64,000 nucleotides of DNA from Zanthoxylum bungeanum (taxonomy: Eukaryota; Streptophyta; Magnoliopsida; Sapindales; Rutaceae), in contig SKCR01029062.1 in assembly GCA_019454045.1 (NCBI GenBank), positions 62,001 to 126,000 of the forward strand. Direction: 5' to 3'. The first letter of the stretch is position 1. Each line of letters starts with the position of its first letter. Below the pieces are notes generated by a model, which saw nothing but the letters and a program-made list of their open reading frames with translations, searched no databases and was not told the DNA's origin. The position numbers were made by a program, and so were the translations under genes. Below, one piece after another: positions 4,047-29,020 of this stretch.

Positions 4047-4051
4047 ATCTC
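4047..4051. repeat. Left TSD of LOG1 element (ATCTC)
   Basis: ATCTC immediately precedes the LTR terminus TGACCGG at 4052 and recurs at 20609-20613 directly after the opposite terminus. This is the 5-bp duplication made by integration. Confidence 0.9.
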
Positions 4052-4084
4052 TGACCGGCGTAAACACACACGTATAACGCAAGC
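4052..4084 (-). repeat. LOG1 3' LTR, distal 33 bp (cut off by element C)
   Basis: These 33 bases equal the outermost bases at 19038 onward in the other LTR. The LTR resumes after element C at 13530. Combined 3' LTR length is about 1608 bp. Confidence 0.9.
4080..4084. repeat. Left TSD of element C (CAAGC)
   Basis: CAAGC lies just before the terminus TGTTGGGG at 4085 and is repeated at 13525-13529 just after the terminus CCCTACA. It proves insertion of C into the LOG1 LTR. Confidence 0.92.
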
Positions 4085-6693
4085 TGTTGGGGTTGGTGCT
4101 CAGAGCGCCAATCCGGACCGTATTTATGTCTGATTCATGAATACGAACATCCCCTTATTCCATAATATTACTTATTTATGGTTGCACCTCTTGTTCTTAT
4201 ATACGTATTCGATCTGATTACGATTAGATTGAAACTAAATGTGGTTTAGTGATATGTATATATTATACAAAGGCCCGATAATATATAATGCAGTACACAG
4301 TTACAAAGTTAGTTTGTAATTGACATTGGGAAGTGTCACTGCTATATGTATATTATCAAACAAAGTTCCTGGTCAAGATTTGCTAACACGGGTCGGTTAG
4401 TCAAATCCGTTGAGACCAGTACATGTCGTATATCGAGACTTGGTCCGATGGTTTATCCCAATGAACCATGAGTCTAGGGAGACTCGTATAGACATGTAGG
4501 TGTTTATAATGGATAAACATTGAACGGCTCACCGAAGATTCTTAATGGATGGTACGCCAACGTCAATAAGAATCTTCTCGGGTTGAGTAGCATAGTGGTC
4601 CTTCGACTTGAGATACCACTGTGGATGTATGAGACATCCTCCACACTTAGATGGCAGTCACGTCACCGATCTATTTAGATCAGACCTCCGCCTGTTCGTT
4701 GGGTGTGGATCGATCCTCAGGATATCCTGTGTGTGTCAAGATAGGATCCGTCAGTTCTGTGTACAGAGCATAGGTAGTCCATATACTATTAGCAGTCTGT
4801 TAAATCTGTGGCCACAGTATACATCGGAAGTAAGTTCCGAGTGTTATTTAGAGATTGCTAATAGATACGTCGACGAGATAATACCTATAGAGATTTGACG
4901 TTTACATCTATATCTCTGGGATTATCCGGATACCTGTGACGGAGGGATTATACGTATGCAATGACCTCGACCTGTATGATTCAGCTAGTTTATCCGTGAT
5001 CGTCATAATCTACGGGTGGATAGATTATGCACATGAAATTGGATTTCGTGACAGATACCTGAATCTAGAGAGTCTCAATAATGAAACATACTCGTAGAGC
5101 ACTAGAGCAACATTTATGAATAATGATGATTATTTATAAATCGTTTAATCGTTAAACGAAAAATACATGCGAACGGGCCGAACCGTCATTTCCTATTATT
5201 AATGTGTATATTGTATTTAATATATGATATTATTAAATACACATTAATAAATGGTCAAATAAAGGTATTTGACATATATCATCAATATATGTATTTGAGA
5301 TATTTAAAGTAAATATGATACATATATTTGATATATTTGCATTTAATTAATTATTTAATTATTTAATTGTTAAATGATTAATATAATTAAAATATAATAT
5401 ATCACCAAATGAGAAAGTTAGGAAATGATTATAAGTGTAAATGTTGACTTTACATTAAAGGAAAAGGTTGTCAAATTGAATTTGACTTCCTTAGATATTT
5501 GTTTTAATTGTTAAAATTGAAATATCCATTTCCTTTATTTATTTGATATTTTCGGCCATACACTTTATAAATATAAGAGTTATATTTTTCTTAAGTTGCC
5601 TTGTTGACTTAATTAAATATCTTTAAAGTTGTTTTAGATATTTGATCAAGTTGAACAAATGAAATTCAAATGAAGTTGAAATTAATATTTCTTGTATATG
5701 CCTTTGTCAATCGGCCAAGGCCTTCTAATGCAAGTATATATTGTTTTTCATTTCATTTAATGTAACCTAATACACTTTCAAAGAAAACTCCATTAATGGA
5801 AGAAAAGGAAGCTTGTGAGAAAGAAAGAAGAAATCAAGAAAGCTTGGATTTTAGTGAGTTTTTCCAACTTGCTATTAGAAAGGAAAATGTTCCTTAGGAT
5901 CTAGGCTTTAACATATGATGTTCTTAGGTTATTTCTTTCTTTATTCCTTGTGTTTTTGTTGATGGAAGTTTTGATGGAAGTGTTGAGCATGTATAATGAA
6001 GGAAGGTTGTGACTATTGTAGTTATAAGCTTTCTTTTAAGGTTTTGGAAACCATGTTGCTAATCTAGAGTTGTTGACCCACTCTTAGATGACCTAGATTT
6101 GATCTTGAGTTGTTTCATTGTGTTGAGACTTTGATTGGATGGAAGAAACATGATTAAAGTAATTGATTTAACCAATTTGGTCTAATTTGTCCAATTTGAA
6201 GAAATTGAAAAATTAGGGTTCATGACCAATTCCAAATTTGGGGGTTTTCATATATGTTGTGTATTTGGAGTGTATATGATGCATATAAAGTTTCATGTTC
6301 ATTGGATTACATCTTGATGTGTTTTGATGCATGAAATGACAAAGTGCACAAATGGCACCCCTTAAGGAGTATTCGGCCAAGGAGTAATATTTGGGGATTT
6401 TGTTGCTTTTGGTGTTTTGATGTTTTGAACATGCTAAGTTCATCTTAGAAATGATTTAGAATCATTCAAAATTGATTAGATCAATTTCGGACTAAAATGG
6501 ACAAAATACCAAGTAAGGGTAATTTGGTAAATCACCTAAATATGATTTATTGAATTTTATTTCATAATTTGATTATTGGAATATTAAATAAATATGTTTA
6601 TTTAATTAATCCGAGAAAAAGTTTTGAAATCGGAAGATACGATCTTCCGCCGCTTCCGCTGCGTTACCGGATTTGCCCCATAAAACCCCTACA
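4085..6693 (+). repeat. 5' LTR of element C (2609 bp)
   Basis: Begins TGTTGGGGTT and ends CCCCTACA. A near-identical copy is at 10904-13524. A 96-codon frame at 4608-4898 inside it has no recognisable domain and is probably chance. Confidence 0.92.
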
Positions 6694-6696
6694 AAA

Positions 6697-6708
6697 TGGT
6701 ATCAGAGC
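6697..6708 (+). other. Primer-binding site, initiator tRNA-Met
   Basis: TGGTATCAGAGC, the 12-base complement of the plant initiator tRNA-Met 3' end, lies 3 bp after the LTR end. Confidence 0.92.
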
Positions 6709-9700
6709 GAGTCTGATCCTAGGCCACCATAAATGATTAGCTTGTTTTATTCAATGTTTAATCATGTTTTCTTGACTTTATACATGCATGGTATAATCTA
6801 ATTTGATTAGATTTAGGGTGTATGACACTTAATGGAAATCCCCGCTTAATAAGGTTTTAAAGTAACTAGTATTTGGAATACTTGTTTCTTGGTCCGTCTT
6901 GTCAATACGGTTTATAAATATCTTTTCGTTGACTACATCTGAGACCGTGCCTCTGCTGTGAGGGTGTAGCTGATAGAAATTTATTTATTGCCGATTGTAT
7001 ATTAGATACTAGATAAATTCAAGCGAAAGCGGAATCCTGAACGTGCCCTAGCTGTCAGGGTTACGCAAGTAACTTGAGTTTTATCATTGACAAGTTAACC
7101 TTGGTACGTCTCCTTGTGGGCCTGCCTTCGCAGCGAAAACGAGAACGACCAGGGACCGGAACCTCGGAGTCACTGGTGAGTGATTGACAATTAGTTGTCT
7201 ACCTGTGAATATACGTAGGCGAGACCGTGCCTCTGCTGTGAGGCGAAATATATTCATGGGGTCCTCTTCCCTTTATGGAATTCGATTTAATTATTGAATT
7301 CTCGTCTTTTTCCGTTGGGGATTACGGAATTACGTAAAAATAGTGGGAGGCACTGCTAGTTTAAAATATTCCATAACTTAGGCAGTGTATGTTGTGTTAT
7401 GGAAATTGTCGCTTGTTTGTTTCCTTATTCTATTGTTTATATAGAATTAAACTTTTATTACTGCACACATATTATGATATGTTATCTGATTTGACTCTTG
7501 GTTGCAGTTATTCTAGAATAGGTTCTAGATACTAATAGACTAGGATATTAATAGATTAGTCTAAACCATCGAGAACTGTTGTTCCGATTTTCTTAAAAAA
7601 TAAAGATGGTTAATGACTTAGTTTCTAAGTCATAATAGATAATCTAGATAGATATCCCCTTTAGGATATAATACTTTAGAGACAATAGTTTCTTATGCAG
7701 TAAGATTGGACTTGAATTAGTTCATGTCTCGAGATTCTTGACTGGCATTTAGAAAGCCCTATTTATTTGTTTTATGTTTATCTAGTAATGACGTTTCTAA
7801 GCTTTAATTACCTTTAGAGGTTATGTGTCTGACACAATTTGCTAATCAGTTATTTACAATTATTGTGAATAGTTGAATGGAAATAGTAAAGCTAAAGAAA
7901 GGAGATGCGTATATTTGTGTATAGAAAATATCGATTTTCACAATACTACAACTATAGGTATTGGATACCAGATCTCCCGTCTAGTTATTTGAAATATTGG
8001 TTAACGATGTTGTGATATTGTGATATCGGAACTTGCGCGACTATTGGATAGTCACTTGTTCTTTATAAACAATTGTTACATATTTTATAATAACTAGTAG
8101 TGTCATTGACGTATAGATAAACATTAGAAAAATTATTCAGTAAAGTAAAATATTTAGAACGGTGCTTTATGAATTTAATCACGTAAGTATTGGATGCTCA
8201 ATCCATATGGTAAAGGATGGTTTGATACTAGATCACACCACATATCCTTATCCATTTAATGAATATGTATTCAGGAAAGTGATTAAGATCTCATTTAACC
8301 AATGATTGTCATGGACCACCAAATTTATTTAAACTGATACATTGGAGTTGTATGTGGTTTAATAAATAATAATTGCTTAAGCTAGTTTTCTTTACTTCGT
8401 AACTTAGTTGATGAATTGTCATAACTTAGTTACGTGTTTCTGAAGGAACACATATTGAAAGTCTTGAAAGTATCAAGTACTTTCAATCCGTTCTGATGAA
8501 ACATAGATTGAACATTTTTGACTTGTTCAAATATATTCAATCTAAAGGTTTTAGAGAATTCTATCCTCAAAATTCATAACATGTCTTTGAACTGTTCAAA
8601 GATCTTTGATACGATCAAACGTATGAATTTAAAGCAATTAGTTCTAAGGTTATTTAGTGAATATGATTCATATTCAATATTGTTCTTCCACGATTCCATC
8701 TTGATGGAATTGAGTAGTGGGAGCAATCGAATCTTATATGATTGATTGTTTGTTCGTGTGATATTGAAAGTTACCGAATTAGTTTCAATACTCTTGGGGT
8801 TATACTCCAGTAACACTAATTCATCTCTTTAATTAATGTTCCATTATTTTCTGCAGTTGCATATATGATATGTATAGGTAGAAAATTTGAATCTTGAAAA
8901 GTTTGAGATTTCAATCTTTCTTTTATATAGTTATTTAATGGAAATTACTTACACTCGGAGGTATAAGTAAAAGTTTATCGTTTATTCTGTTTAATAGAAT
9001 ATTGTATTCTGTTAATAGAATATCTTTCCTACGATTCTAAGTAATAAAATCGTTTTATTACTTGGTGTGTAACATCAGATGTTAACTATTGTAGAAAAGA
9101 CTTGACTTATTGAAGTCAAATGTGAGAATGATAAATTATAAATGGAACTATGTAATTAATAAGATGAAACAACCCTTATACATCTTCCGTGCAAGTCCAA
9201 TAGGATAACAGAATCATTCACGAGTATTTGATACTTAATGGTTCCGTTGTTTTCTTATTGAAGAAAAATTATCCTATGACTTTTAATGGAAGCGATATTT
9301 GATATCGATTCTGGAAGTTCACCATTGAACCTTAGATCTAAGATTGTTCATAGCTTACTACGATCAAGTTTTGAACTTGATTAAGCTTTCATTATGAATT
9401 AGTTCATGATATGTGCTAATTGTTTGCGCGACGAAAGCATTGTGAGCTTATTAAAGGTTTGACCTTTACAGTATGACAGTGAGAAAAGTTATACTCAGCA
9501 ATCTATTGTAGATTCTGAGAAAACTTATCTCTAGTCACACTAATGAACAATTAAAGATATATTGGTTAATGTTGATAATAAACTGTATATTTTAGCTAAA
9601 GAATGCAAAGTGGCGTTTTTGGATGACTTATTCAGATAAGAGATCAGTTGTGATTTCCTTATTTGAAGAGTTCATTCTGAAATGGCCCTAGAGTTTGTGT

Positions 9701-10889
9701 TTCTGTGAGATCGCAGTTATAGTGTGTTAGCTTACAGAGCCTATTGTAGACTCGGATAAGTCTTCCAAATATGTGTTCTCTATTGTTGATATCGTCAGAT
9801 TGTCTGATCTTGTCAAAGTATAGAGAATACATATGTGATTAGAAGGGTTAGTGAGAGCGTACAAATTACTTTCTAGTGTTATATATCCTGATGACATTAT
9901 CATTATTATTGTAATAATGAGATGTTTGTGAGGTAAAAGATTTACCTAAGTCTTCTTTACTCCGTGAAAGCAGTGGGAGTTGTCTCTGTTATATTTGATA
10001 TAAAGTTTTATATATGATATGAAACTTGGAGACTTGTGAGATACTCCTATTAGTCGTACATTAGATATGATCTAATGAAGGACATAACAAGGCTATCTGT
10101 ATGACAGTTAGTATAACTGTTCGACAGTTATTGTATGTCTTATACATAGTATTCATCTTTCGTAAATGATGATTCCTTTTTCGAAAGAAATATTGATTAG
10201 AATGTCTAAATAATATTATGTATCATTTGATGATAACATAATGAATACTTTATTATGTGCGATTATCGATGTCGATTTAATCGTAATTGTTACGAGTTAT
10301 TTTGACATCCTATAGACCATATGATGGATCTTGAAACACGTTCTTTGTGATCTTTGAGATATTAAGAACGAGTTTCTAATTCATGGAGAATATAGTCTAC
10401 AACCATTAGGGTCATATTAGTTTTGAGAATAATTATGACGTTAGATAGTCTACGTCATAAAGATTCACAAAAGATGCAGTGGGAGTGTCACGAAGGATTC
10501 TACTATTTAGTGGAATCAAATGCAACTTTTGAAGTATTGACTTATGAAGTTGCATAGTGACCTTTTAAATTAGAAGTTTTTGAATTGTTATTGTGCTTGC
10601 GGTTGTCTTCATAGTATTTTGGATTTGATCCTTAAATACTTGGACAACTCAGTAGCTGTAGCACAATACTGATATAGCATCCATTTCATATTAATGTATA
10701 ATTTAGATTCTACAAAATATGAATGATGCTGACTATGGGAAACGATAGAGTTTGATTGACAAACTCGATATTTCATAGCGGACTTGTTTTGTTGTTGCCT
10801 ACCTCTTAAGTACTGGGTGAGCTTTTGAGGGCCATGTGCATACGATGCACATTGAGACGTGTATATGATACCGTGGATTGGCACTAGAG

Positions 10890-10903
10890 CAAGTGGGAGA
10901 AAT
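10890..10903 (+). other. Polypurine tract of element C
   Basis: A run containing AAGTGGGAGA abuts the 3' LTR at 10904. Confidence 0.85.
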
Positions 10904-13524
10904 TGTTGGGGTTGGTGCTCAGAGCGCCAATCCGGACCGTATTTATGTCTGATTCATGAATACGAACATCCCCTTATTCCATAATATTACTTATTTATGG
11001 TTGCACCTCTTTGTTCTTATATACGTATTCGATCTGATTACGATTAGATTGAAACTAAATGTGGTTTAGTGATATGTATATATTATACAAAGGCCCGATA
11101 ATATATAATGCAGTACACAGTTACAAAGTTAGTTTGTAATTGACATTGGGAAGTGTCACTGCTATATGTATATTATCAAACAAAGTTCCTGGTCAAGATT
11201 TGCTAACACGGGTCGGTTAGTCAAATCCGTTGAGACCAGTACATGTCGTATATCGAGACTTGGTCCGATGGTTTATCCCAATGAACCATGAGTCTAGGGA
11301 GACTCGTATAGACATGTAGGTGTTTATAAGGATAAACACTGAACGGCTCACCGAAGATTCTTAATGGATGGTACGCCAACGTCAATAAGAATCTTCTCGG
11401 GTTGAGTAGCATAGTGGTCCTTCGACTTGAGATACCACTGTGGATGTATGAGACATCCTCCACACTTAGATGACAGTCACGTCACCGATCTATTTAGATC
11501 AGACCTCCGCCTGTTCGTTGGTGTGGATCGATCCTCAGGATATCCTGTGTGTGTCAAGATAGGATCCGTCAGTTCTGTGTACAGAGCATAGGTAGTCCAT
11601 ATACTATTAGCAGTCTGTTAAATCTGTGGCCACAGTATACATCGGAAGTAAGTTCCGAGTGTTATTTAGAGATTGCTAATAGATACGTCGACGAGATAAT
11701 ACCTATAGAGATTTGACGTTTACATCTATATCTCTGGGATTATCCGGATACCTGTGACGGAGGGATTATACGTATGCAATGACCTCGACCTGTATGATTC
11801 AGCTAGTTTTATCCGTGATCGTCATAATCTACGGGTGGATAGATTATGCACATGAAATTGGATTTCGTGACAGATATACCTGAATCTAGAGAGTCTCAAT
11901 AATGAAACATACTCGTAGAGCACTAGAGCAACATTTATGAATAATGATGATTATTTATAAATCGTTTAATCGTTAAACGAAAAATACATGCGAACGGGCC
12001 GAACCGTCATTTCCTAATTAATGTGTATTTGTATTTAATATATGATATTATTAAACATACACATTAATAATGGTCAAATAAAGGTATTTGACATATATCA
12101 TCAATATATGTATTTGAGATATTTAAAGTAAATATGATACATATATTTGATATATTTGCATTTAATTAATTATTTAATTATTTAATTGTTAAATGATTAA
12201 TATAATTAAAATATAAATATATCACCAAATGAGAAAGTTAGGAAATGATTATAAGTGTAAATGTTTGACTTTACATTAAAGGAAAAGGTTGTCAAATGAA
12301 TTTGACTTCCTTAGATATTTGTTTTAATTGTTAAAATTGAAATATCCATTTCCTTTATTTATTTGATATTTTCGGCCATACACTTTATAAATATAAGAGT
12401 TATATTTTTCTTAAGTTGCCTTTGTTGACTTAATTAAATATCTTTAAAGTTGTTTTAGATATTTGATCAAGTTGAACAAATGAAATTCAAATGAAGTTGA
12501 AATTAATATTTCTTGTATATGCCTTTGTCAATTTCGGCCAAGGCCTTTCTAATGCAAGTATATATTGTTTTTCATTTCATTTGAATGTTAACCTAATACA
12601 TTTCAAAGAAAACTCCATCAATGGAAGAAAAGGAAGCTTGTGAGAAAGAAAGAAGAAATCAAAGAAAGCTTGGATTTTAGTGAGTTTTTCCAACTTGCTA
12701 TTAGAAAGGAAAATGTTCCTTAGGATCTAGGCTTTAACATATGATGTTCTTAGGTTATTTCTTTCTTTATTCCTTGTGTTTTTGTTGATGGAAGTTTTGA
12801 TGGATGGAAGTTGAGCATGTATAATGAAGGAAGGTTGTGACTATTGTAGTTATAAGCTAGAATTTAAGGTTTTGGAAACCATGTTGCTAATCTAGAGTTG
12901 TTGACCCACTCTTAGATGACCTAGATTTGATCTTGAGTTGTTTCATTGTGTTGAGACTTTGATTGGATGGAAGAAACATGATTAAAGTAATTGATTTAAC
13001 CAATTTGGTCTAATTTGTCCAATTTGAAGAAATTGAAAAATTAGGGTTCATGACCAATTCCAAATTTGGGGGTTTTCATATATGTTGTGTATTTGGATGT
13101 GTATATGATGCATATAAAGTTTCATGTTCATTGGATTACATCTTGATGTGTTTTGATGCATGAAATGACAAAGTGCACAAATGGCACCCCTTAGGGAGCA
13201 TTCGGCCAAGGATGTAATATTTGGGGATTTTGTTGCTTTTGGTGTTTTGATGTTTTGAACATGCTAAGTTCATCTTAGAAATGATTTAGAATCATTCAAA
13301 ATTGATTAGATCAATTTCGGACTAAAATGGACAAAATACCAAAGTAAGGGTAATTTGGTAAATTCACCTAAATATGATTTATTGAATTTTATTTCATAAT
13401 TTGATTATTGGAATATTAAATAAATATTTTATTTAATTAATCCGAGAAAAATTTTTGAAATCGGAAGATACGATCTTCCGCCGCTTCCGCTGCGTTACCG
13501 GATTTGCCCCATAAAACCCCTACA
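10904..13524 (+). repeat. 3' LTR of element C (2621 bp)
   Basis: Second copy of the LTR at 4085-6693; it ends CCCCTACA before TSD CAAGC. An 80-codon reverse-strand frame at 11221-11463 is not credible as a gene. Confidence 0.92.
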
Positions 13525-13529
13525 CAAGC

Positions 13530-15104
13530 GCACGTATCTTCAAGTAGTATAAAAATATCGATCCCACGAGGACTTAATTCCTACTGTTGTTATTAATTAT
13601 TGAATCTATTTATTTACAAATATCTAATTGAGGGTGAAGAAAATGATTGCTTGATTGATTTGGTTGTTTATAGTTTTGTAAAATAAATAAATAGACAAAA
13701 GAAAATACTAAGGAAAATAACAAAAGACACAAAGATCTAGGGTTGTGAATCATTCTAATATCTTTTAAAAGATGAAGTGATTATTTTATGTTTGTGTAAT
13801 AAATCAGTTTACTAACCTGGAACACTAAATTATGCAAAAGCCTCTGTCGATGGTCAGACGCAAATACCAAGTTTAACTCAATTGAACCATATGTCTATGT
13901 CAACCAAATTATATGGATTCATTAAGTTTGAGTTCCAATTATGGCTACCCCCGTCCGACAGGTATATGTCTATCCTGTAAGGAAATCTATTAAGGGTTAT
14001 CTATCCTCAAGGAAGATCGTGGACTATTAAGTCTAAGGCTGAAACCTAAAATCCATATGTCTAGTTCATTTTAGATTTACCACATCAATCTTATTGGTGA
14101 TCAGAAAACAAGAAGCATTAAGCTTAAGACTTAATAAGTAAACCTTTAGATTACCCAACTATAAAATAACCCCTTATAAACCGGTGATATTAGAATTCAT
14201 CACAACCCCTAGATAACTAACACATAGCTAGGGCTAGTAAAAACTTAAAAGACATAAAGTAAAAATACTGAAAAGTAAAAGACATAAAGTAAAAACTGAA
14301 AAGTAAAATAAAAAAAAAATGCTGAGGTAAAAGGATCAACTTTTACTATTTACTATTTAGATATCTCCCTTAATATAATATATTAACTTGTGATTAATTT
14401 TCCAACCAGCCATATAGGCGGTAACCTGATTAAGTCAAATTAAGTCCAACCAGCCATAAAGGCGGAACCAAAATTAAATTACCAACCGACCAATCTGGCG
14501 GTATCCTTGATTAGTCAGGTTTAAACCAGATTAAAATGAATTACCAACCGACCAATCTGGCGGTATCTTTTTTAAGTCAATATTTTAAATAGTGAATATA
14601 TTATTTTAAAGGGAGATTAATCTAAATAGTAACAGTAAAAGAATTACCTTTCACCCTAGCTGGGGAAGTTACCTCCTCATGGTGAATAGTAAAAACTGTA
14701 AAAAGTAAAAATAAAAAGTAAATTACTATTATTACAGAACATAATTAAAATTATTTACAAAACTAAAAATTAAAAAACTAAAAACTAAAAACTAAAAGAA
14801 ACTAGAGAGAGAAACTCTCTCTTTACATCAAAGAAATGAGAGAGAGTGGTACATCTAAAATTGAAATTTGAAGCTCTATTTATAGGCGCGGATAGGCATC
14901 GGGCGTCGCGACGCGGGAAATTACCAAAATGCCCTTTTTCGTCCAATTTTCATTGTTTTTTCCCAAATCACCTCCAGAATGTCCTGAAACTATATTTATC
15001 TAAAAAATAACACAAAACACATCAAAATATTCACAAAACTCAAGAAACTATACAAAATATTAGGTTAAATTAGTGGGAAATAGTGATATATTTACCACTC
15101 ATCA
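13530..15104 (-). repeat. LOG1 3' LTR, main part
   Basis: Matches 19071-20608. On the minus strand it starts TGATGAGTGGTAAAT at 15104. It carries a TATA box (14877-14884), a GC palindrome (14903-14915) and degenerate tandem units around 14400-14580 built on CCAACCGACCAATCTGGCGG. The homologous array in the 5' LTR has lost about 50 bp near 20100. Confidence 0.92.
14877..14884 (-). promoter_or_regulatory. TATA box in LOG1 3' LTR
   Basis: Minus strand TATAAATA flanked by a GC-rich stretch upstream. Same position and sequence as the box in the 5' LTR; in this copy it would drive transcription out of the element toward lower coordinates, where element C now lies. Confidence 0.6.
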
Positions 15105-15135
15105 CACCCCTAAACCTAACATTTTACTAGTCCTC
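15105..15135 (-). other. Polypurine tract region of LOG1 element
   Basis: Minus strand reads CTCGAGGACTAGTAAAATG then TTAGGTTTAGGGGTG directly before the LTR. The layout (CGAGGACTAG, then TTTAGGGGTG, then TGATGAG) is common at the 3' end of Tat-type plant elements. Confidence 0.7.
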
Positions 15136-15668
15136 GAGCAAAACATAGAGTAAAATAACATAAATAAATTAACTAAGCCATTTTCGTAGGGATCACGGTT
15201 GCATTTAGCGTATGCAACAAGCCTTTAAACCCCTAGGTGTCCCTAGTGGACGAGTTGTAGTCTCGTGAGGGTTTACAGCAATGATACCCACAAACATTTT
15301 ACAAAAGTAAAAAGGTAATAAAACTAATGCACACAAAAGCAAAAAGACAAGCGAAAAAAGAATAAAGAAGTTAGTGACTAATCAGGTGAAACTTCTACTC
15401 CAAGTTACTAGTTGTTTTGTTTCTTTCTAAATTACAGAATATGTAAATTCTCCGATTATTTTTTACCATTCTTCATATACACAACCAACAAGATATTAAT
15501 CAACTCATTTTTGCCCATAACAGTCATAAGTGTAGTTGATAAGAGAGTAATATTTTTGTCCTAAAGTTCTATCAGATTTCACACCTTTTGTAGCAATGGA
15601 ATAATTTTTCTCATTTTTCTGATTTTTTTTCTTTGATTTTTCTCTATTTTTTTTATTTATATACAATA

Positions 15669-15904
15669 TCTTCCATCTATATAACGAGTGTTGGGTCGGT
15701 GGCTCCCAAACTAGTTGGCTTTAGGGCACCAGGTGTTAAGACAACCCTACGGACTTAATTTCTCAGACTTCAGATATATATATATATATTTGCAGCATCT
15801 TTGATCCATGTAGCGAGCTTTGGGCCAGTGACTCCCAAACCAGTTGGTTTTAGGGCACTAGGTGTTAAAACACCCTAACAGACTTAATAACTCGGATCTC
15901 AGAT
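15669..15904 (-). repeat. Tandem repeat in the 3' untranslated part of LOG1 element
   Basis: Two diverged units (about 15669-15773 and 15803-15904), each with a block close to CTCCCAAACTAGTTGG, the segment TTTAGGGCACCAGGTGTTAA and a block ending GACTTAAT. The LOG2 element has the same units at about 29838-30070. Tandem repeats here are known in Ogre/Tat-type elements. Confidence 0.75.
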
Positions 15905-16343
15905 TTTTTTTTTACTCCATCACTTTTTGAGATGCTTCCTCCGATTAAACTAGAGCATTGAATATTACAAACTTTTCAATTTTAGCTCATGTCCGTATGT
16001 TACTATATATGTTGATAATATCTACCAACTGAGCATATGAAGATTCATTTTAGTCAGTGTTATGGAGAATTCACAAATTAAATAATTTAAAAGGAAATAA
16101 ATAAAAAATAACTTGTTTCGAAATAGGTTTGAGATACGTCTCAGGAGTGGAAACTCCTTACTCTGCTATCTCTTACCAATTCCACCTTTTTAGTCAAAAT
16201 AAAAAAACAAAATATTTTTGTAATTTTTGAAAAATTTTCAAATTTTTTTGTATTTTTCGAAAAATTTTGGACTAAAAATAAAAACAACACACTAACTAAA
16301 AATAAGGTACTGATCAACTAATTCCCTCCCCCAAACCTAAATG

Positions 16344-16363
16344 AGACATTGTCCCCAATGTCT
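16344..16363 (-). other. Perfect hairpin 60 bp downstream of LOG1 stop
   Basis: AGACATTG and CAATGTCT form a perfect 8-bp stem around a 4-base loop, followed on the element strand by the purine run GTTTGGGGGAGGG (about 16322-16335). The LOG2 element has the same stem at 29106-29125. The ACATTGGGGACAATGT motif is widespread in Tat/Athila-type plant elements. Confidence 0.8.
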
Positions 16364-16422
16364 TAAACAGTAGAAGAAGAGTTTAGAAGATAATATATGG
16401 TTAGCTGAAATTCTACAGGAAA

Positions 16423-17076
16423 TTAAAGGTTAAGATCCAGATTAATCCTACGCCTCTTACCACGATCGTCCTCAGACCAATTTATCTTTGAAAGGATAGG
16501 GTCAATTCGTGGTTCATAGGCTATGAGTTGGTCTATTAGATCCGGAGTAGTTCTGGCAGTAAATAGGAGTTCTTTCAAAGGTTTTGACACGAACCCATTT
16601 CTCCGGGCATCATCAAGTAACACACAAAGAAAATCATAAAATCCATCAACATTAAACAGCCCAATTGGTTTCTGGTGTATGTTAAGGTTCTCCCAAGATA
16701 GCACTATAAAAATTTCCTCCAATGTACCTAAGCCACCTGGCAAATCAATAAAAGCATCAGCACGGTTAATCATTTCTACCAGTCGTTCAGACATACCTGG
16801 CACGATCAGTTCCTCTCCGTTTGATGGTTCAATAAGATTTTCCTCTGCCAAGGGTTTTGGAATGATTCCCAAAACGTGACTGCCTCCCTCCTGTACAGCC
16901 TTTGAAACGATCCCCATAAGTCCAAGATTTCCTCCGCCATATATTAAGTGCATATTCCTTGCAGCTAAGACTCGACCCAATTCATGTGCTGCTTCTACGT
17001 ATTGTGGTTTAACACCAACACTACTACCGCAAAACACACAGATATTTTCAACTCGTCTTCTTGAAGTGGCTTCCAT
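16423..17076 (-). CDS. Cytokinin riboside 5'-monophosphate phosphoribohydrolase, LOG-type, carried by a retrotransposon (LOG1)
   Basis: A LOG-family enzyme would release active cytokinin bases from their riboside monophosphates in the cytosol or nucleus. The 217-codon frame has no stop or frameshift and spans the whole family: NICVFCGSS near the N-terminus, YGGGNLGLMG, GIIPKPLA, the nucleotide-binding PGGLGTLEE, and NIHQKPIGLFNVDGFYDF. Length matches plant LOGs (about 210-225). I chose the ATG at 17076 because the LOG2 copy starts at the same residue; an in-frame ATG at 17115 would add 13 residues. Host LOG genes have several introns and this copy has none, so it was captured through RNA. The Arg-Lys pair before the PGG motif in typical plant LOGs is Arg-Leu here, so activity is not assured. 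The C-terminus carries GKRRR and ends INLDLNL, resembling a basic patch plus an LxLxL (EAR-like) motif. The LTR promoter lies upstream at about 20385. Confidence 0.9.
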   Translation of the reverse strand: MEATSRRRVENICVFCGSSVGVKPQYVEAAHELGRVLAARNMHLIYGGGNLGLMGIVSKAVQEGGSHVLGIIPKPLAEENLIEPSNGEELIVPGMSERLVEMINRADAFIDLPGGLGTLEEIFIVLSWENLNIHQKPIGLFNVDGFYDFLCVLLDDARRNGFVSKPLKELLFTARTTPDLIDQLIAYEPRIDPILSKINWSEDDRGKRRRINLDLNL

Positions 17077-17546
17077 TTTTTTATGTATTTCTTTCTCAAC
17101 TCTGGATGCCTTCAAAAGTGCAATGACGGGCTGAATTTATAGTACCTGAAAAAGGGTGAGTAATAATAGCACTAGTATCTTCCAGAGGACGTTTGTTTGC
17201 TAAACAACAAAATGAATCGTGAAAGGTCAAAAAGTCTGGATCCTGTCTACGAAAATAAAGATTATTACAACAGAAAAGAGAATCAAAGCAATAATTAAGG
17301 CAACGGAATTGTGTACGCAATACGCCACTTGTTTGGTATATAAATCCATTAGGATGCGTCTCAAGAATTAATTCTTTACTCAGCCATCGCTAATGAATTG
17401 TCTCTCTACTTTGTGATTGCCAAACATCATTCCTTCTGTCTTTAAAATGCTCCGTTTGTGCTTTTCCCTACAAAAATAACACACAAAATTAAAAACTCTA
17501 CAACATGTATACATAAAATATGAAAATAAAAATTACAACAAATTGC

Positions 17547-17562
17547 ATGGGTTGCCTCCCTG
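17547..17562 (-). other. Tat-type end-of-ORF motif (GGGAGGCAACCC)
   Basis: Minus strand GCAGGGAGGCAACCCATG follows the gag-like frame. In many Tat/Ogre-type elements this motif marks the end of the coding region, so the LOG gene occupies what is normally untranslated 3' sequence. Confidence 0.6.
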
Positions 17563-17611
17563 CTAGTGCTAAATTTTTCGTCTTCATCCAGACGTGACTG
17601 AAATCTATCTG

Positions 17612-18901
17612 TCAAGGAGGTTTCAGCGTCATTTTGGATGTCCGATTAAAGACAATCCCGTGAGCATTGCTTTTGAATGGTCTCTTCCAAAGGTAAATGG
17701 GCAAAGAGAGTTTTGTCTCATTCAGTGCTCGTGCCGCCTTTTTGCTCCTTATTGTTCCAGTGGTTCCTGCAAAGAAATAAAGAAAATCAGAAGGTCTCGT
17801 ATGGTGCTTGACTTGGAATGGGAGTTCCATTCTGTCAAGCTTCTGGGCGATATCTTTGATTTGTACTCCCCAAAACAGCGATGTTTCTCCTGAATGCTCT
17901 GGATCTTTATTAATGTCAGACATTTGCTCCTCCATTTGATCTGCTTCTTGCTCCATATTTTCTTCACAGATGAATTTTAAAATTTTTGTATTCAGCTCTT
18001 CATCTGTCATCTGTGAAATACATGCTTCAAAATTGTCAACCTGAGGATGCAAAAATGTTTCTGACATTAGGTTTTCATCCTCTGATACGACTGGAATGGA
18101 TGGTTCAGATAGATATCTTCAAACATCATGGTAAAACATGCTCCAAGATCTTCATTTTGAGGATTGAAAGTTTGATCCTCCGTTGTTGGTGCAGTTGGTA
18201 CAAATAGATCAGCTTCATCCTCGTCAGAATCTGAATAATAAAAGTCAAATTGATGCCGGTTCGGGCTCCTGAACTGATACCTCTGGTTGTTGATACTGCT
18301 CAGCCTTCTCCTCTGTTGAAGTGTCATTGTGAAATGATTGGTACTCGAAGGCTTCATCAGTGTCATCTGAAACTGGTTCTTGAGGTATGTAGTTCTGGTT
18401 TTCTGTGAATTGTCTCATTTGATCTGTCATCCTCTGAATGAATTCCGATTGTCTCTGAATACTTTCAAATTGATTCTGGCTTGTTTGAAGCATTGTATCC
18501 AACTTTTCTTTTCGTTTCTTGAACATATCTTTGAGCATGTTTAGCAACTGATCTTCCTCTGATGGTTCTGGTTGTTGATGAAGATCATAGGTAGATGGTG
18601 GATAAGATGGAAAATGTGGTTCTGTGAAATGTGATGGCTCGTCATACCATGAATGATCTTGATAGCTCTGCCACCCTGGATGGTAGTTGTATTCGCAATA
18701 ATCTCTAGGGTGGTTGCCATTACATATGTCACATCTCCCCATTGCGTATTGTTGAGCAAATGTGGTATTGCTTGGTTCTGGCATCCAGTGATAATTGTTG
18801 GGCTGGACAACAGGCCTCAGAAAACCGGACTGTTGCTCCCAGATTTGGGGTGTATCTTCTAGTAAAGCTCGTGATCTTTCAATCTCCCAATAATGTTCCA
18901 T
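17612..18901 (-). pseudogene. gag-like ORF of LOG1 element, frameshifted
   Basis: Starts with ATG at 18901, about 110 bp inside the primer site. The first frame (18901-18245, 218 codons) contains CDICNGNHPRDYC near residues 56-68, a CxxCxxxHxxxxC zinc-knuckle-like motif resembling those of Tat/Athila gag proteins. It is followed by a Pro/Tyr-rich stretch and a Lys/Gln-rich probable coiled coil (about residues 125-170). Translation continues in other frames at 18366-18067 (acidic stretch DSDEDEAD) and 18067-17612. At least two frameshifts, or unrecognised splicing, separate them. No protease or polymerase follows, so it must rely on proteins from a partner element. Whether the first frame alone is translated is unknown. 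Confidence 0.62.
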
Positions 18902-19013
18902 TTTTCAATCACCTGAAAACAAAAGAAAGAAATAAAAATTACAGATAAAAATAAATAAAATTAGATACAAGTAAATTAGATAGCTTCAAAATTAATAACT
19001 CAAGAAAAATAAA

Positions 19014-19031
19014 TCCCCAGCAACGGCGCCA
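19014..19031 (-). other. Primer-binding site, tRNA-Asp
   Basis: Minus strand TGGCGCCGTTGCTGGGGA is complementary to the 3' end of plant tRNA-Asp with one mismatch. It lies 6 bp inside the 5' LTR. tRNA-Asp priming is typical of Tat/Athila-type gypsy elements. Confidence 0.88.
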
Positions 19032-19037
19032 AAAACT

Positions 19038-20608
19038 TGACCGGCGTAAACACACACGTATAACGCAAGCACACGTATCGTTCAAGTAGTATAAAAATAT
19101 TGATCCCACGAGGACTTAATTCCTACTGTTGTTATTAATTATTGAATCTATTTATTTACAAATATCTAATTGAGGGTGAAGAAAATGATTGCTTGATTGA
19201 TTTGGTTGTTTATAGTTTTGTAAAATAAATAAATAGACAAAAGAAAATACTAAGGAAAATAACAAAAGACATAAAGATCTAGGGTTGTGAATCATTCTAA
19301 TATCTTTTAATAAGATGAAGTGATTATTTTATGTTTGTGTAATAAATCAGTTTACTAACCTGGAACATTAAATTATGCAAAAGCCTATGTCGATGGTCAG
19401 ATGCAAATACCCAGTTTAACCCAATTGAACCATATGTCTATGTCAACCAAATTATCTGGATTCATTAAGTTTGAGTTCCAATTATGGCTACCCCCGCCCG
19501 ACAGGTATATGTCTATCCTGTAAGGAAATCTATTAAAGGGTTATTTATCCTCAAGGAAGATCGTGGGCTATTAAGTCTAAGGCTGAAACCTAAAATCCCT
19601 ATGTCTAGTTCATTTTAAATTTACCACATCAATCTTATTGGTGATCAGACAACAAGAAGCATTAAGCTTAAGACTTAATAAGTAAACCTTTAGATTACCC
19701 AAACTATAAAATAACCCCTTATAAACCGGTGATATTAGAATTCATCACAACCCCTAGATAACTAACACATAGCTAGGGCTAGTAAAAACTTAAAAGACAT
19801 AAAGTAAAAATACTGAAAAGTAAAAGACATAAAGTAAAAACTGAAAAGTAAAATAAAATAAAATAAAATGTTAAGGTAAAAGGATCAACTTTTACTATTT
19901 ACTATTTAGATATCTCCCTTAATATAATATATTAACTTGTGATTAATTTTCCAACCAGCCTTATAGGCGGTAACCTGATTAAGTAAAATTAAGTCCAACC
20001 AGCCATAAAGGCGGAACAAAAATTAAATTACCAACCGACCAATCTGGCGGTATCCTTGATTAGTCAGGTTTAAACCAGATTAAAATGAATTACCAACCGA
20101 TAATGAATATATTATTTTAAAGGGAGATTAATCTAAATAGTAACAGTAAAAGAATTACCTTTCACCCTAGCTGGGGAAGTTACCTCCTAATGATGAATAG
20201 TAAAAACTGTAAAAAGTAAAAAGTAAAAAGTAAATTACTATTATTACAGAACGTAATTAAAAATATTTACAAAACTAAAAATTAAAAAACTAAAAACAAA
20301 AAGAAACTAGAGAGAGAAACTCTCTCTTTACATCAAAGAGATGAGAGAGAGTGGTACATCTAAAACTGAAATTTGAAGCTCTATTTATAGGCGCGGATAG
20401 GCATCAGGCGTCGCGACGCGGGAAATTACCAAAATGTCATTTTCGTCCAATTTTCACTGTTTTGGCCCAAATCACCTCCAGAATGTCTTGAAACTTTATT
20501 TATCTACAAAATAACACAAAACACATCAAAATATTCACAAAACTCAAGAAACTATACAAAATATTAGGTTAAATGAGTGAGAAATAGTGATATATTTACC
20601 ACTCATCA
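19038..20608 (-). repeat. 5' LTR of LOG1 element (1571 bp)
   Basis: On the minus strand it runs from TGATGAGTGG (20608) to CGCCGGTCA (19038). It matches the split 3' LTR closely, with one ~50-bp deletion near 20100. Confidence 0.92.
20382..20389 (-). promoter_or_regulatory. TATA box of the LOG1 5' LTR
   Basis: Minus strand TATAAATA, followed at about 35-70 bp by CT-rich sequence (about 20309-20350, on the minus strand CTCTCTCATCTCTTTG and TTTCTCTCTCTAG). That resembles a plant pyrimidine patch at a transcription start. A transcript from here would run through the gag-like frame and the LOG gene. Confidence 0.65.
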
Positions 20609-20613
20609 ATCTC

Positions 20614-22526
20614 TAAGATCGATTGGATCCAATCCAATTCCTAGATCCAGTAGGGGGACATCCAAGTCCGAAACATATATCTTATATATGTCAATACATC
20701 CAATGTATTACCTAACCTTTTTCCTCTGAATCAACTAAGCATTGGCTTTGGCACAACAAACTTAGTGATCCCAGTTAAGCGCGACCCATTGACCATGGAA
20801 AGCTTCGTAATCAATGTCGATGGATAAGAAGTGGTCTTGACTTTGGCCAACAAACCACAACTTGGACAAGACACCAATATGGAACAAAGCCTTCGTGATT
20901 CAAACACATCCTCGACGGACAAAGGTCTTGACTTTGGCCAAAAAACCAATGCCAGTCTTAGATCTTGAGTAAGAATCACTCAATGGAAGGAAAAACGCTT
21001 AATATTTTGCGAGGGTTTTTCGAGTGCAAATTGGCAACCAATTTATTATCTTTGTTAAGGTCTCATCATCATACACCCTTAAACATGCATTCTAAACACA
21101 TAATAAAGCGCGTATAATAAAATAATAATGATATGCGGATGGATACTTTACACATTGATCCTAGATCAAATCTCTCACTTTCTCTCTCCCGCTAGCACAA
21201 GTATTTACTTCTACCCATTACACTACACTTCTAAAGAAACCTCATTTACATTGAGGGGAATAGGTGAGAAGAGAATACAAAGAATATGGAGGTATAAGGC
21301 TGGACACGCAGGTCCAATTAATAAATCAAATTTATTACAACAATTTCTAAAATTGTCTCACCCTTCTAATATCCATCCGATATACATTATTCATGCATCG
21401 CAACCATGTATTCACACAAGCATGTTATCAATCAATCTAATCAAATTAATTAATCTGATAATTAGTGATCATCCAATGTTCAAACAACGATTTGATTTTG
21501 CGCGAGTCAAACTCGTTTTTGAGAATAAGTACTCAAAGTACGAATTCTCGAATTAAATTAAACTACATAATTAAATCCAATTCAATATGCATTTAATTCT
21601 AATTCGCTTATTTAATTCCAAATTAAACATTACACTTTAATAACGAACCTTTTACGACTTAAATTCCAAATTTAATCGTTACGGGTCTCAAAGCCCGATT
21701 AACGTCCAACGTCAATTTAATTAAAGTCCAATGGGCTTTTAATTAATTTCTTAAGGCATGGACTTTTGGTCAACTCGGGTCAAACCGAATAACCAAAATC
21801 CAATCCGGGAATTACCTCATAAGCCCAGAAATCAATTTAGGCCTATTAGGCCCAATTAAACTTTAAAGGTCCATTAAGTCGCATTTGGGCTTTATGGATG
21901 CGATTTTGGGCCCAATTGGATCCAACCAATTTTGCCTAAACCCAACTTGGTACAACCAAGCCCAATAAGCCCAATAACAACATAACAAGCCCAAATCCAA
22001 TTTAAGGCCCAAATAATTAAATTCTAAAAATCCAATTTCCCAATTTAATTACACTAAAGTGTATAACACAATTAATCACCCAAATTAATATTTCAAAAAC
22101 ATTAATTTATACAATTAATCATGCTCAATTATAACAAAATATGTCCAACATATTTCATCAAAAATCAAACCCATTTTCATGCTCAACATGTCTCGGCAAT
22201 TAGGGGAATTTTAAATCAATTTCGATTTCAATCCAATTGAATCCACAATCAATATTAAATCAACATTCCCAAATGATTCCAATTCATCCAATGAACAAAA
22301 AATCAAAAATTCCAAGACAATTAGGGCTCAAGGCATTCGGCCAACACATAAAATTTGGGGAAATTTGTTCCAAACAACATTTCATCAAATTGATCCAATC
22401 AATCATCAATTAAAACACATTTAAGCATACTAATTTATCCAATTTCATTATACATGTTCAAAATCAATTTTACCCAAATTTTAGGCCCTAAATCAATTTC
22501 ATGCTCAACCTTGCTCAAGATACCAT
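20614..22526 (-). other. 5' internal part of Copia A, no intact gene
   Basis: Homologous to 24563-26416 of Copia B. It holds a degenerate primer site (minus strand TGGTATCTTGAGC, 22513-22525) and dispersed copies of GACTTTGGCCAACAAA (about 20838, 20929; another at about 4009 across the LOG1 insertion). Gag is expected here but I recognise no gag motif; frames are short. Confidence 0.6.
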
Positions 22527-28384: not shown

Positions 28385-29020
28385 ATGGAGAAAACTTCGA
28401 GAAGACCAGTCATTAATATCTTTGTGTTTTGTAGAAATAGCTCTAGAACTAAACCAGAATTTATTGAAGTTGCAATAGAGTTGGGTAGAGTTATGGCGGA
28501 AAGAATCATGCACTTAGTATATGGCAGTGGTAATCTTGGATTGATGGGATGTGTTTTAAAGTTCGTGCAAGTTGGTGGCAATAAAGTTTTGGGGATCATT
28601 CCAAACCTTTGGCAGAAGAATCATCGAAAAATCAAATGGAGAATAATATATTGTCTCAGATATGTCTGAAGACTTAATGAAATGATTAATCATGCTGATG
28701 CTTTTATTCTTTTACCAGGTGGGCTGGGTACGTTGGAAGAAATATCCACAATTGCATCATTGGCGAACTTGAACATTCACCGAAAACCGATTGGACTACT
28801 TAATGTTGATCACTTTTTCAATCTTCTTTTAGTATTTCTTGAGGATGACAAAAGACTTGGGTTCATTTCGAAATCGATAAAAGATATCGTCCTAACTTCA
28901 AAAAAAGTTGATAAGCTATTAGTTTATGAACCAAAAATCGACCTCATTCTTTCCAAGTTGAACTAGTCTGATAACGATCATGGCAAAAAGCGTAGAGTGG
29001 ACTTGAATCTTAATCTGTAA
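28385..29020 (+). pseudogene. Broken LOG-type gene (LOG2)
   Basis: Second intronless LOG copy, aligning along the whole of the LOG1 protein from its start (MEKTSRR) to its end (DLNLNL). Breaks: CGSS near the N-terminus has become CRNSS; a single-base deletion in the stretch after GIIPN (about 28605-28615) shifts the frame; a second indel near 28680 restores it at MINHADAF; and a tryptophan codon of LOG1 is a stop codon at about 28965. PGGLGTLEE is retained. After the late stop the translation still gives GKKRRVDLNLNL, so the basic patch and LxLxL-like end are ancestral to both copies. An in-frame stop just upstream of the ATG supports this start. It is not expected to make a working enzyme. 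Confidence 0.88.

Follow-up and report, generated by a model that had tools for sequence, protein, structure and literature searches.

A LOG-family gene under purifying selection as high-copy cargo of a probable Athila-type LTR retrotransposon family in Zanthoxylum bungeanum

The extra open reading frames of plant long terminal repeat (LTR) retrotransposons are mostly without known domains (PMC9289625, PMC6317226; here and below, statements drawn from cited papers refer to available excerpts of them). The closest described case to the one reported here comes from Citrus and Populus, where LTR elements contain a YgdH (LOG-family) domain (PMC9289625, which cites Steinbauerova et al. 2011). Here we analyse a LOG-bearing LTR retrotransposon in a 64,000-nucleotide stretch of Zanthoxylum bungeanum DNA (contig SKCR01029062.1, positions 62,001 to 126,000; hereafter the window, to which all positions refer unless a copy is named). 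The abstract of Steinbauerova et al. 2011 is said to describe two Athila-like elements similar to LOGL4. The presence of LOG in plant LTR elements is already known, and host genes inside such elements are less rare than a first-pass annotation of the window had claimed, given the LOG-family domains of the Citrus and Populus elements (PMC9289625). No report of LOG in LTR elements beyond that paper was found in the open-licence literature.

The LOG gene in the window is a real, high-copy cargo gene under purifying selection. The first-pass annotation had placed a LOG frame at 16423-17076, and these coordinates proved exact; it is an open minus-strand frame of 217 aa with a match to Pfam Lysine_decarbox (E 1.3e-34). 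The LOG DNA was used as a query against the source genome (3.96 Gb), giving 6403 first-look candidates. Forty of these were scored, and all 40 matched almost the entire frame at 95% identity or more. Twenty of the scored copies were fetched with their flanks and, with the window copy, make up the 21 copies discussed below. Compared with the window, the fetched copies are 95-96% identical in LOG, 87-94% in pieces of the 3′ region and 81-94% in pieces of the LTR. Target-site duplications (TSDs) of CTAAT (copy L014), ATTTA (L016) and ACGGA (L028) mark independent insertions; TSDs were found in four of seven copies examined, window included, with a pattern that did not resolve the other three. LOG is therefore cargo of the element, as had been proposed, and occupies the same place in independent insertions with TSDs of their own. 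A chance retrogene insertion into a single element is ruled out by the copy number and the differing TSDs, and the cargo reading withstands the refutation that the first-pass annotation had set for it. A Bs1-type single-event transduction (PMC7264820, PMC11963269) was also rejected, as it would be expected to leave the cargo in one or a few copies and not in 40 of 40 scored from 6403 candidates.

Selection was assessed by pooled Nei-Gojobori ratios of non-synonymous to synonymous rates (dN/dS), with the same frames shifted by one and two bases as controls. For LOG in the 21 copies dN/dS was 0.184 (shifted frames 0.66 and 1.62), and it was 0.156 in the six copies of the window's own type, the window counted in. 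Across all 40 scored copies, in 26 of which the frame is open, the value was 0.212. The comparison between copies that the first-pass annotation had suggested thus returns a dN/dS of about 0.2 and purifying selection on LOG. The frame for reverse transcriptase (RT) to integrase (INT) gave 0.158 (n = 6; shifted frames 1.09 and 1.51). Among the 40 copies, shared LOG changes comprised 59 synonymous and 42 non-synonymous, and singletons 46 and 100, respectively (Fisher p = 4.4e-5, sites treated as independent). This is the pattern left when the active lineage is under selection and copies decay once inserted. About half of the changes are C-to-T or G-to-A, and methylation decay therefore adds to the change counts.

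The predicted structure of the window LOG (pLDDT 86.8) has AtLOG3 (2a33) as its best structural match, and the protein carries PGGLGTLEE (motif PGGxGTxxE), Arg98 and Glu121. In CgLOG the catalytic residues are Arg99 and Glu122, and the side-chain pocket is formed by Met96, His97, Lys100, Glu125 and Trp129; alanine at AMP-site residues, Lys100 included, nearly abolished activity, all replacements being to alanine (PMC4979012). Two sets of database proteins were compared by alignment to CgLOG. The first, termed element-type, consists of 89 full-length proteins (210-225 aa) among 120 listed hits, these being the best 120 of 2681; the term is a clade label, and location in an element is shown for the copies from the source genome and for protein P0223. 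The second, canonical set consists of the best 120 of 7998 scored proteins of any length and contains LOG3- and LOG8-type proteins, to which the window LOG is 43-44% and 37-40% identical, respectively, among the rows listed. Element-type proteins retain the catalytic Arg (83/89) and Glu (87/89). In the side-chain pocket they retain Trp (88/89) and mostly Met (72/89), with His in 20/89 and Lys and Glu in only 5/89 each, whereas every catalytic and pocket residue is present in 120/120 canonical proteins. The window LOG keeps the pocket Met and Trp and has Ser, Leu and Ile in place of His, Lys and Glu, an arrangement found in all 21 copies. These counts weaken the first-pass description of LOG as a cytokinin-activating enzyme, and a repurposed LOG appears likelier than a mobile cytokinin-activating gene. 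The C-terminus differs as well. A basic run near it occurs in 81/89 element-type and 0/120 canonical proteins, and a C-terminal LxLxL, one form of the EAR motif, in 77/89 and 0/120, respectively; 20 of the 21 copies have LDLNL. The LxLxL tail had been missed in the first-pass annotation, as had a second extra frame beside LOG in other copies (see below).

A tree of 71 proteins separated 47 element-type rows from 24 canonical plant LOGs on a 100/100 branch. The split recurs in a second tree built without the tail and pocket columns (36 versus 12 rows). Relatives of the element-type LOG occur in rosids and asterids, and a recent single capture of LOG is ruled out by this clade and its taxonomic spread. 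Derivation from a captured host LOG mRNA is plausible; any such capture would be old, given a single element-type clade whose relatives are spread over several plant orders. The second tree shows one change of the pocket and four of the tail state, the latter being on one reading a single gain with small later changes. Protein P0041 combines the tail with the old pocket, and both the tail and the pocket change are missing from the deepest rows (P0082, P0035 and P0037). P0041 and one branch thus point to a tail gained first and a side-chain pocket lost afterwards. In Xanthoceras, the long gene models P0013 and P0021 encode an element-type LOG that has the old pocket motif MHERKAEM, and in P0013 it occurs twice.

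The carriers of LOG are of several kinds. Among the 20 fetched copies, six have 1 kb or more of the RT-RNase H-INT frame together with a frame for a putative nucleic-acid-binding protein (NABP), five have NABP and no RT-RNase H-INT frame, five are window-type (no NABP, same 5′ part) and four fit no class. In some copies the gene order is gag, pol, NABP and then LOG. Copy L010 contains a 963-aa frame with RT, RNase H and integrase domains in Gypsy order, and a gag domain was found in L013. The gag and NABP frames of L010 are interrupted, and the part of its LTRs that was matched is 96.7% alike; L010 is gag-pol-bearing, and no autonomy is claimed for it. In L010, the one copy tested, Pfam matches to E 0.1 included no second RNase H, a mark of Tat elements (PMC6317226), and by that criterion Athila is favoured over Tat. 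This argues for a large Ty3/gypsy family of Athila type. In the window, tblastn at E 1e-4 detected no NABP, gag or RT of the family. The window copy is non-autonomous, and looks like a deletion derivative that has retained LOG.

Two further observations concern individual copies. In L029, positions 435-995 on the minus strand encode a sequence with 89% protein likeness to the gag-like frame of the window, upstream of the L010 element on the same contig. The L028 flanks (1-641 and 8397-8707) belong to a copy of the repeat that flanks the LOG element in the window (20609-21552), with the insertion about 310 bases off the matching site.

The NABP frame has about 182 codons and lies directly ahead of LOG in 11 of the 20 fetched copies. 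Of three NABP frames tested, all matched Pfam Carla_C4 and two matched Viral_NABP above the curated cut-off. An alignment of 63 sequences was assembled from one copy of the source genome and 62 of 120 homologues listed (from 191), in which, at E up to 0.01, Carla_C4 was matched by 59/63 and Viral_NABP by 58/63. Cys 85, 88, 93 and 97 and the preceding basic KKRRAK are at least 90% conserved in these 63 sequences. The structure model is poor (pLDDT 61), and several of the 11 NABP frames from the source genome are broken by a stop or an indel. Homologues are named from Xanthoceras, Acer, Orobanche and Rhamnella among the matches listed. P0223 (Orobanche) contains NABP and LOG within one gene model, and in P0234 (Rhamnella) the stretch ahead of NABP was read by eye as an integrase end; the NABP neighbourhood is therefore not private to the source genome. 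Scans of viral contigs with NABP and with LOG returned no relatives. Viral NABPs suppress RNA silencing, one being weak or unable in some assays (PMC3689765). They are likewise described as silencing suppressors in PMC12172455, where one is also a transcription factor that induces hyperplasia.

The LOG element itself spans 4052-20608 on the minus strand, with a 5-bp TSD, ATCTC, at both ends. The first-pass annotation had reported matching LTRs, and these stand: the 5′ LTR at 19038-20608 and a 3′ LTR ending at 15104 leave 15105-19037 as exactly the internal region. Its TSD is also real, and becomes visible at 4047-4051, to match 20609-20613, once an element nested in the 3′ LTR is recognised. 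ATCTC is absent between 12901 and 13600, where the 3′ LTR had looked truncated near 13522; the missing LTR end is at 4052-4084, flanked by ATCTC, which sets the limits of the element. The nested element has a TSD of its own (CAAGC) and LTRs of about 2.6 kb that are 98.4% alike. The features are as follows.

4047-4051: left TSD, ATCTC, adjoining the 33-nt end piece of the 3′ LTR
4052-4084, minus strand: terminal 33 nt of the 3′ LTR, severed by the nested insertion (LTR match, ATCTC flank)
4085-13524: younger LTR element nested within the 3′ LTR, with its own TSD, not part of the LOG element
13525-15104, minus strand: main part of the 3′ LTR (LTR match), ending at 15104
15105-15116, minus strand: purine-rich tract GGTTTAGGGGTG beside the 3′ LTR, its role suggested by position
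16423-17076, minus strand: LOG open reading frame, 217 aa, complete and open
16426-16440, minus strand: LOG C-terminal LDLNL motif (LxLxL, EAR-like)
16447-16458, minus strand: LOG basic patch, motif KRRR
16714-16716, minus strand: LOG Glu121 codon, equivalent by alignment to catalytic Glu122 of CgLOG
16783-16785, minus strand: LOG Arg98 codon, equivalent by alignment to catalytic Arg99 of CgLOG
17146-17162, minus strand: splice-acceptor-like tract TACTCACCCTTTTTCAG (pattern), about 70 nt ahead of the LOG start
17549-17560, minus strand: GGGAGGCAACCC, encoding REAT of the pol end (S/R)REATHAI, by comparison with gag-pol-bearing copies
17612-18067, minus strand: frame with a short piece (23 aa, 57%) like the L010 region behind the protease
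18245-18901, minus strand: gag-like frame, weakly like the L013 gag C-terminus (27%, E 2e-4; no Pfam match)
18912-18932, minus strand: acceptor-like tract (pattern) ahead of the gag-like frame
19014-19031, minus strand: primer binding site TGGCGCCGTTGC..., following the 5′ LTR
19038-20608, minus strand: 5′ LTR (LTR match)
20609-20613: right TSD, ATCTC, adjoining the 5′ LTR

In the direction of the element, the 5′ LTR begins TGATGAGTGG and finishes GTCA, with the primer site next, at 19031. We take this primer site to be the complement of a tRNA-Asp end. LTR ends of the form TG...CA and a 5-bp TSD are present in the window, L014, L016 and L028. The two LTRs of the window element differ at 39 of 1538 aligned sites (Kimura two-parameter distance 0.0258), corresponding to an age of presumably around one million years if a plant rate of 1.3e-8 per site and year is assumed. 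One assignment of the first-pass annotation did not hold: GGGAGGCAACCC had been taken as the end of gag, and the (S/R)REATHAI that it helps to encode follows the integrase end in gag-pol-bearing copies, making it the end of pol. Elsewhere in the window, a second, decayed element-type LOG lies at 28385-29002 on the plus strand, opposite in direction to the first. It has a broken frame and 54% protein identity to the first LOG, its nearest relative is P0005 (66%), and matches to the 3′ region extend to 30329. The acceptor-like pattern ahead of LOG (TACTCACCCTTTTTCAG in the window) is kept in 19 of the 21 copies, and a spliced LOG message is plausible.

Taken together, these data suggest a selected, repurposed LOG in an Athila-type family, with putative nuclear, co-repressor and anti-host-control roles, a tentative reading to which as a whole we give not quite an even chance. 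The LTR transcript, perhaps after splicing, would give rise to LOG, whose basic tail could carry it to the nucleus, where LxLxL may recruit TOPLESS-type co-repressors. The protein would bind or cleave some nucleoside monophosphate that is not a cytokinin precursor. In copies with NABP, LOG and NABP might aid the element against host control, for example RNA silencing. A more specific version appears rather unlikely, namely that the two genes form a counter-defence module in an old lineage, in which a silencing blunter shared with viruses is paired with a LOG turned into a nuclear, co-repressor-recruiting nucleotide hydrolase, and that LOG would be worth keeping after pol and NABP are lost.

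Several points weigh against a repurposed LOG with such roles. The steps of expression, splicing, location and activity are proposed from sequence. Ten LxLxL effectors other than HaRxL21 were tested without TOPLESS binding (PMC7446885), which makes LxLxL alone weak evidence. NABP is less constrained, with a dN/dS of 0.354 (n = 11; shifted frames 0.90 and 0.82), and the window copy lacks both NABP and pol, so that a joint role of LOG and NABP cannot apply to that copy alone. The order of tail before pocket hangs on P0041 together with one branch, whose support is 98/86 in the 71-protein tree and 92/75 in the second. The DNA tree of the 21 LOG copies is nearly unresolved, and retention of LOG by descent in window-type copies is therefore indistinguishable from exchange with other copies. 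Moreover, the copies were picked by likeness to the window LOG, which may enrich the sample for open frames and leaves any copy that lacks LOG out of sight. Finally, residue 111 of the window LOG (16744-16746), just before PGGLGT, is Asp, and Ala in the other 20 of the 21 copies; this particular copy may be less active owing to the change.

The same evidence bears on three other accounts of why LOG is kept. Were the element LOG still to activate cytokinin, LTR-driven expression would raise local cytokinin, cells would keep dividing and copying of the element would be favoured. The LOG fold, AtLOG3 as best match and the retention of the catalytic Arg (83/89), Glu (87/89) and pocket Trp (88/89) are what such an enzyme would show, and both genes could influence cell division, given that hyperplasia is induced by a viral NABP (PMC12172455). 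We nevertheless consider this account unlikely, as the pocket Lys and Glu are each kept in 5/89 and His in 20/89 element-type proteins, and alanine at AMP-site residues including Lys100 nearly abolished the activity of CgLOG, although alanine is the only replacement on which this comparison draws (PMC4979012). Conservation of the phosphate-site residues and not of the base-pocket residues would also suit a protein that serves the cycle of the element rather than acting on the host nucleus; it might, for instance, bind nucleotides alongside gag or RT in the particle. LOG adjoins a nucleic-acid-binding frame in 11/20 fetched copies, in keeping with such a partnership, but the conserved basic and LxLxL tail would then need another reason, and we judge a role of this sort quite improbable. 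Least probable of all, and disfavoured, is a functionless passenger, captured long ago and since replicated with the element. It would account for the 14 of 40 copies that are not open, and for a window copy without gag-pol function and with a private change in the LOG core. It is at odds with a dN/dS of 0.18-0.21 against 0.66 and 1.62 in shifted frames, with the differing composition of shared and single changes (Fisher p = 4.4e-5, with sites again taken as independent) and with the catalytic residues retained across the clade.

Both extra genes here have recognisable relatives and dN/dS values below those of their shifted-frame controls, and the LOG changes form a traceable series. The role of such cargo for the element is thereby testable with small purified proteins. 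There is also a warning for annotation: Populus proteins named LOGL10 group with the element-type LOGs, and cytokinin may not be their product. LOG (217 codons) and NABP (about 182) are below the 250-codon limit of an earlier survey (PMC6317226), which may explain why that survey did not single them out. In the open-licence literature, no report was found of a NABP neighbour, a changed pocket, a tail or pol-less carriers of LOG, nor of a carlavirus-type NABP in LTR elements. Of most interest is the possible action of LOG and NABP against host control.

Other Athila elements carry an env-like frame, and in the present family NABP and LOG stand in its place, the assignment to Athila being drawn from domain order and RNase H. 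As in Athila (PMC6317226), gag, RT, RNase H and integrase follow Gypsy order, with extra frames at the 3′ end. The family resembles the Citrus and Populus YgdH elements in having a LOG-family gene as an extra domain of plant Gypsy elements (PMC9289625), a likeness of description and not of DNA; Populus proteins share the clade of the window LOG. It differs from the available part of that account in the NABP, pocket, tail, selection and non-autonomous carriers noted here. In Phalaenopsis, Gypsy elements similarly keep a host-type enzyme, an AlkB-type m6A demethylase, as an extra frame in many copies (PMC9289625); the enzyme is a different one and was tested in vitro, whereas LOG is known here from sequence alone. 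The element NABP is like the Cys-rich NABP of carlaviruses (PMC3689765, PMC12172455) in its Carla_C4 and Viral_NABP matches, four conserved Cys and preceding basic stretch, and unlike it in being encoded by a retroelement, in adjoining LOG and in being missing from the window copy. LxLxL near the LOG C-terminus recalls HaRxL21, a downy-mildew effector whose C-terminal LxLxL binds TOPLESS (PMC7446885), binding being shown there by experiment and the motif alone being seen here. Finally, the window LOG shares with AtLOG3 and AtLOG8 the fold, PGGxGTxxE and the catalytic Arg and Glu, and departs from both in its side-chain pocket and C-terminus.

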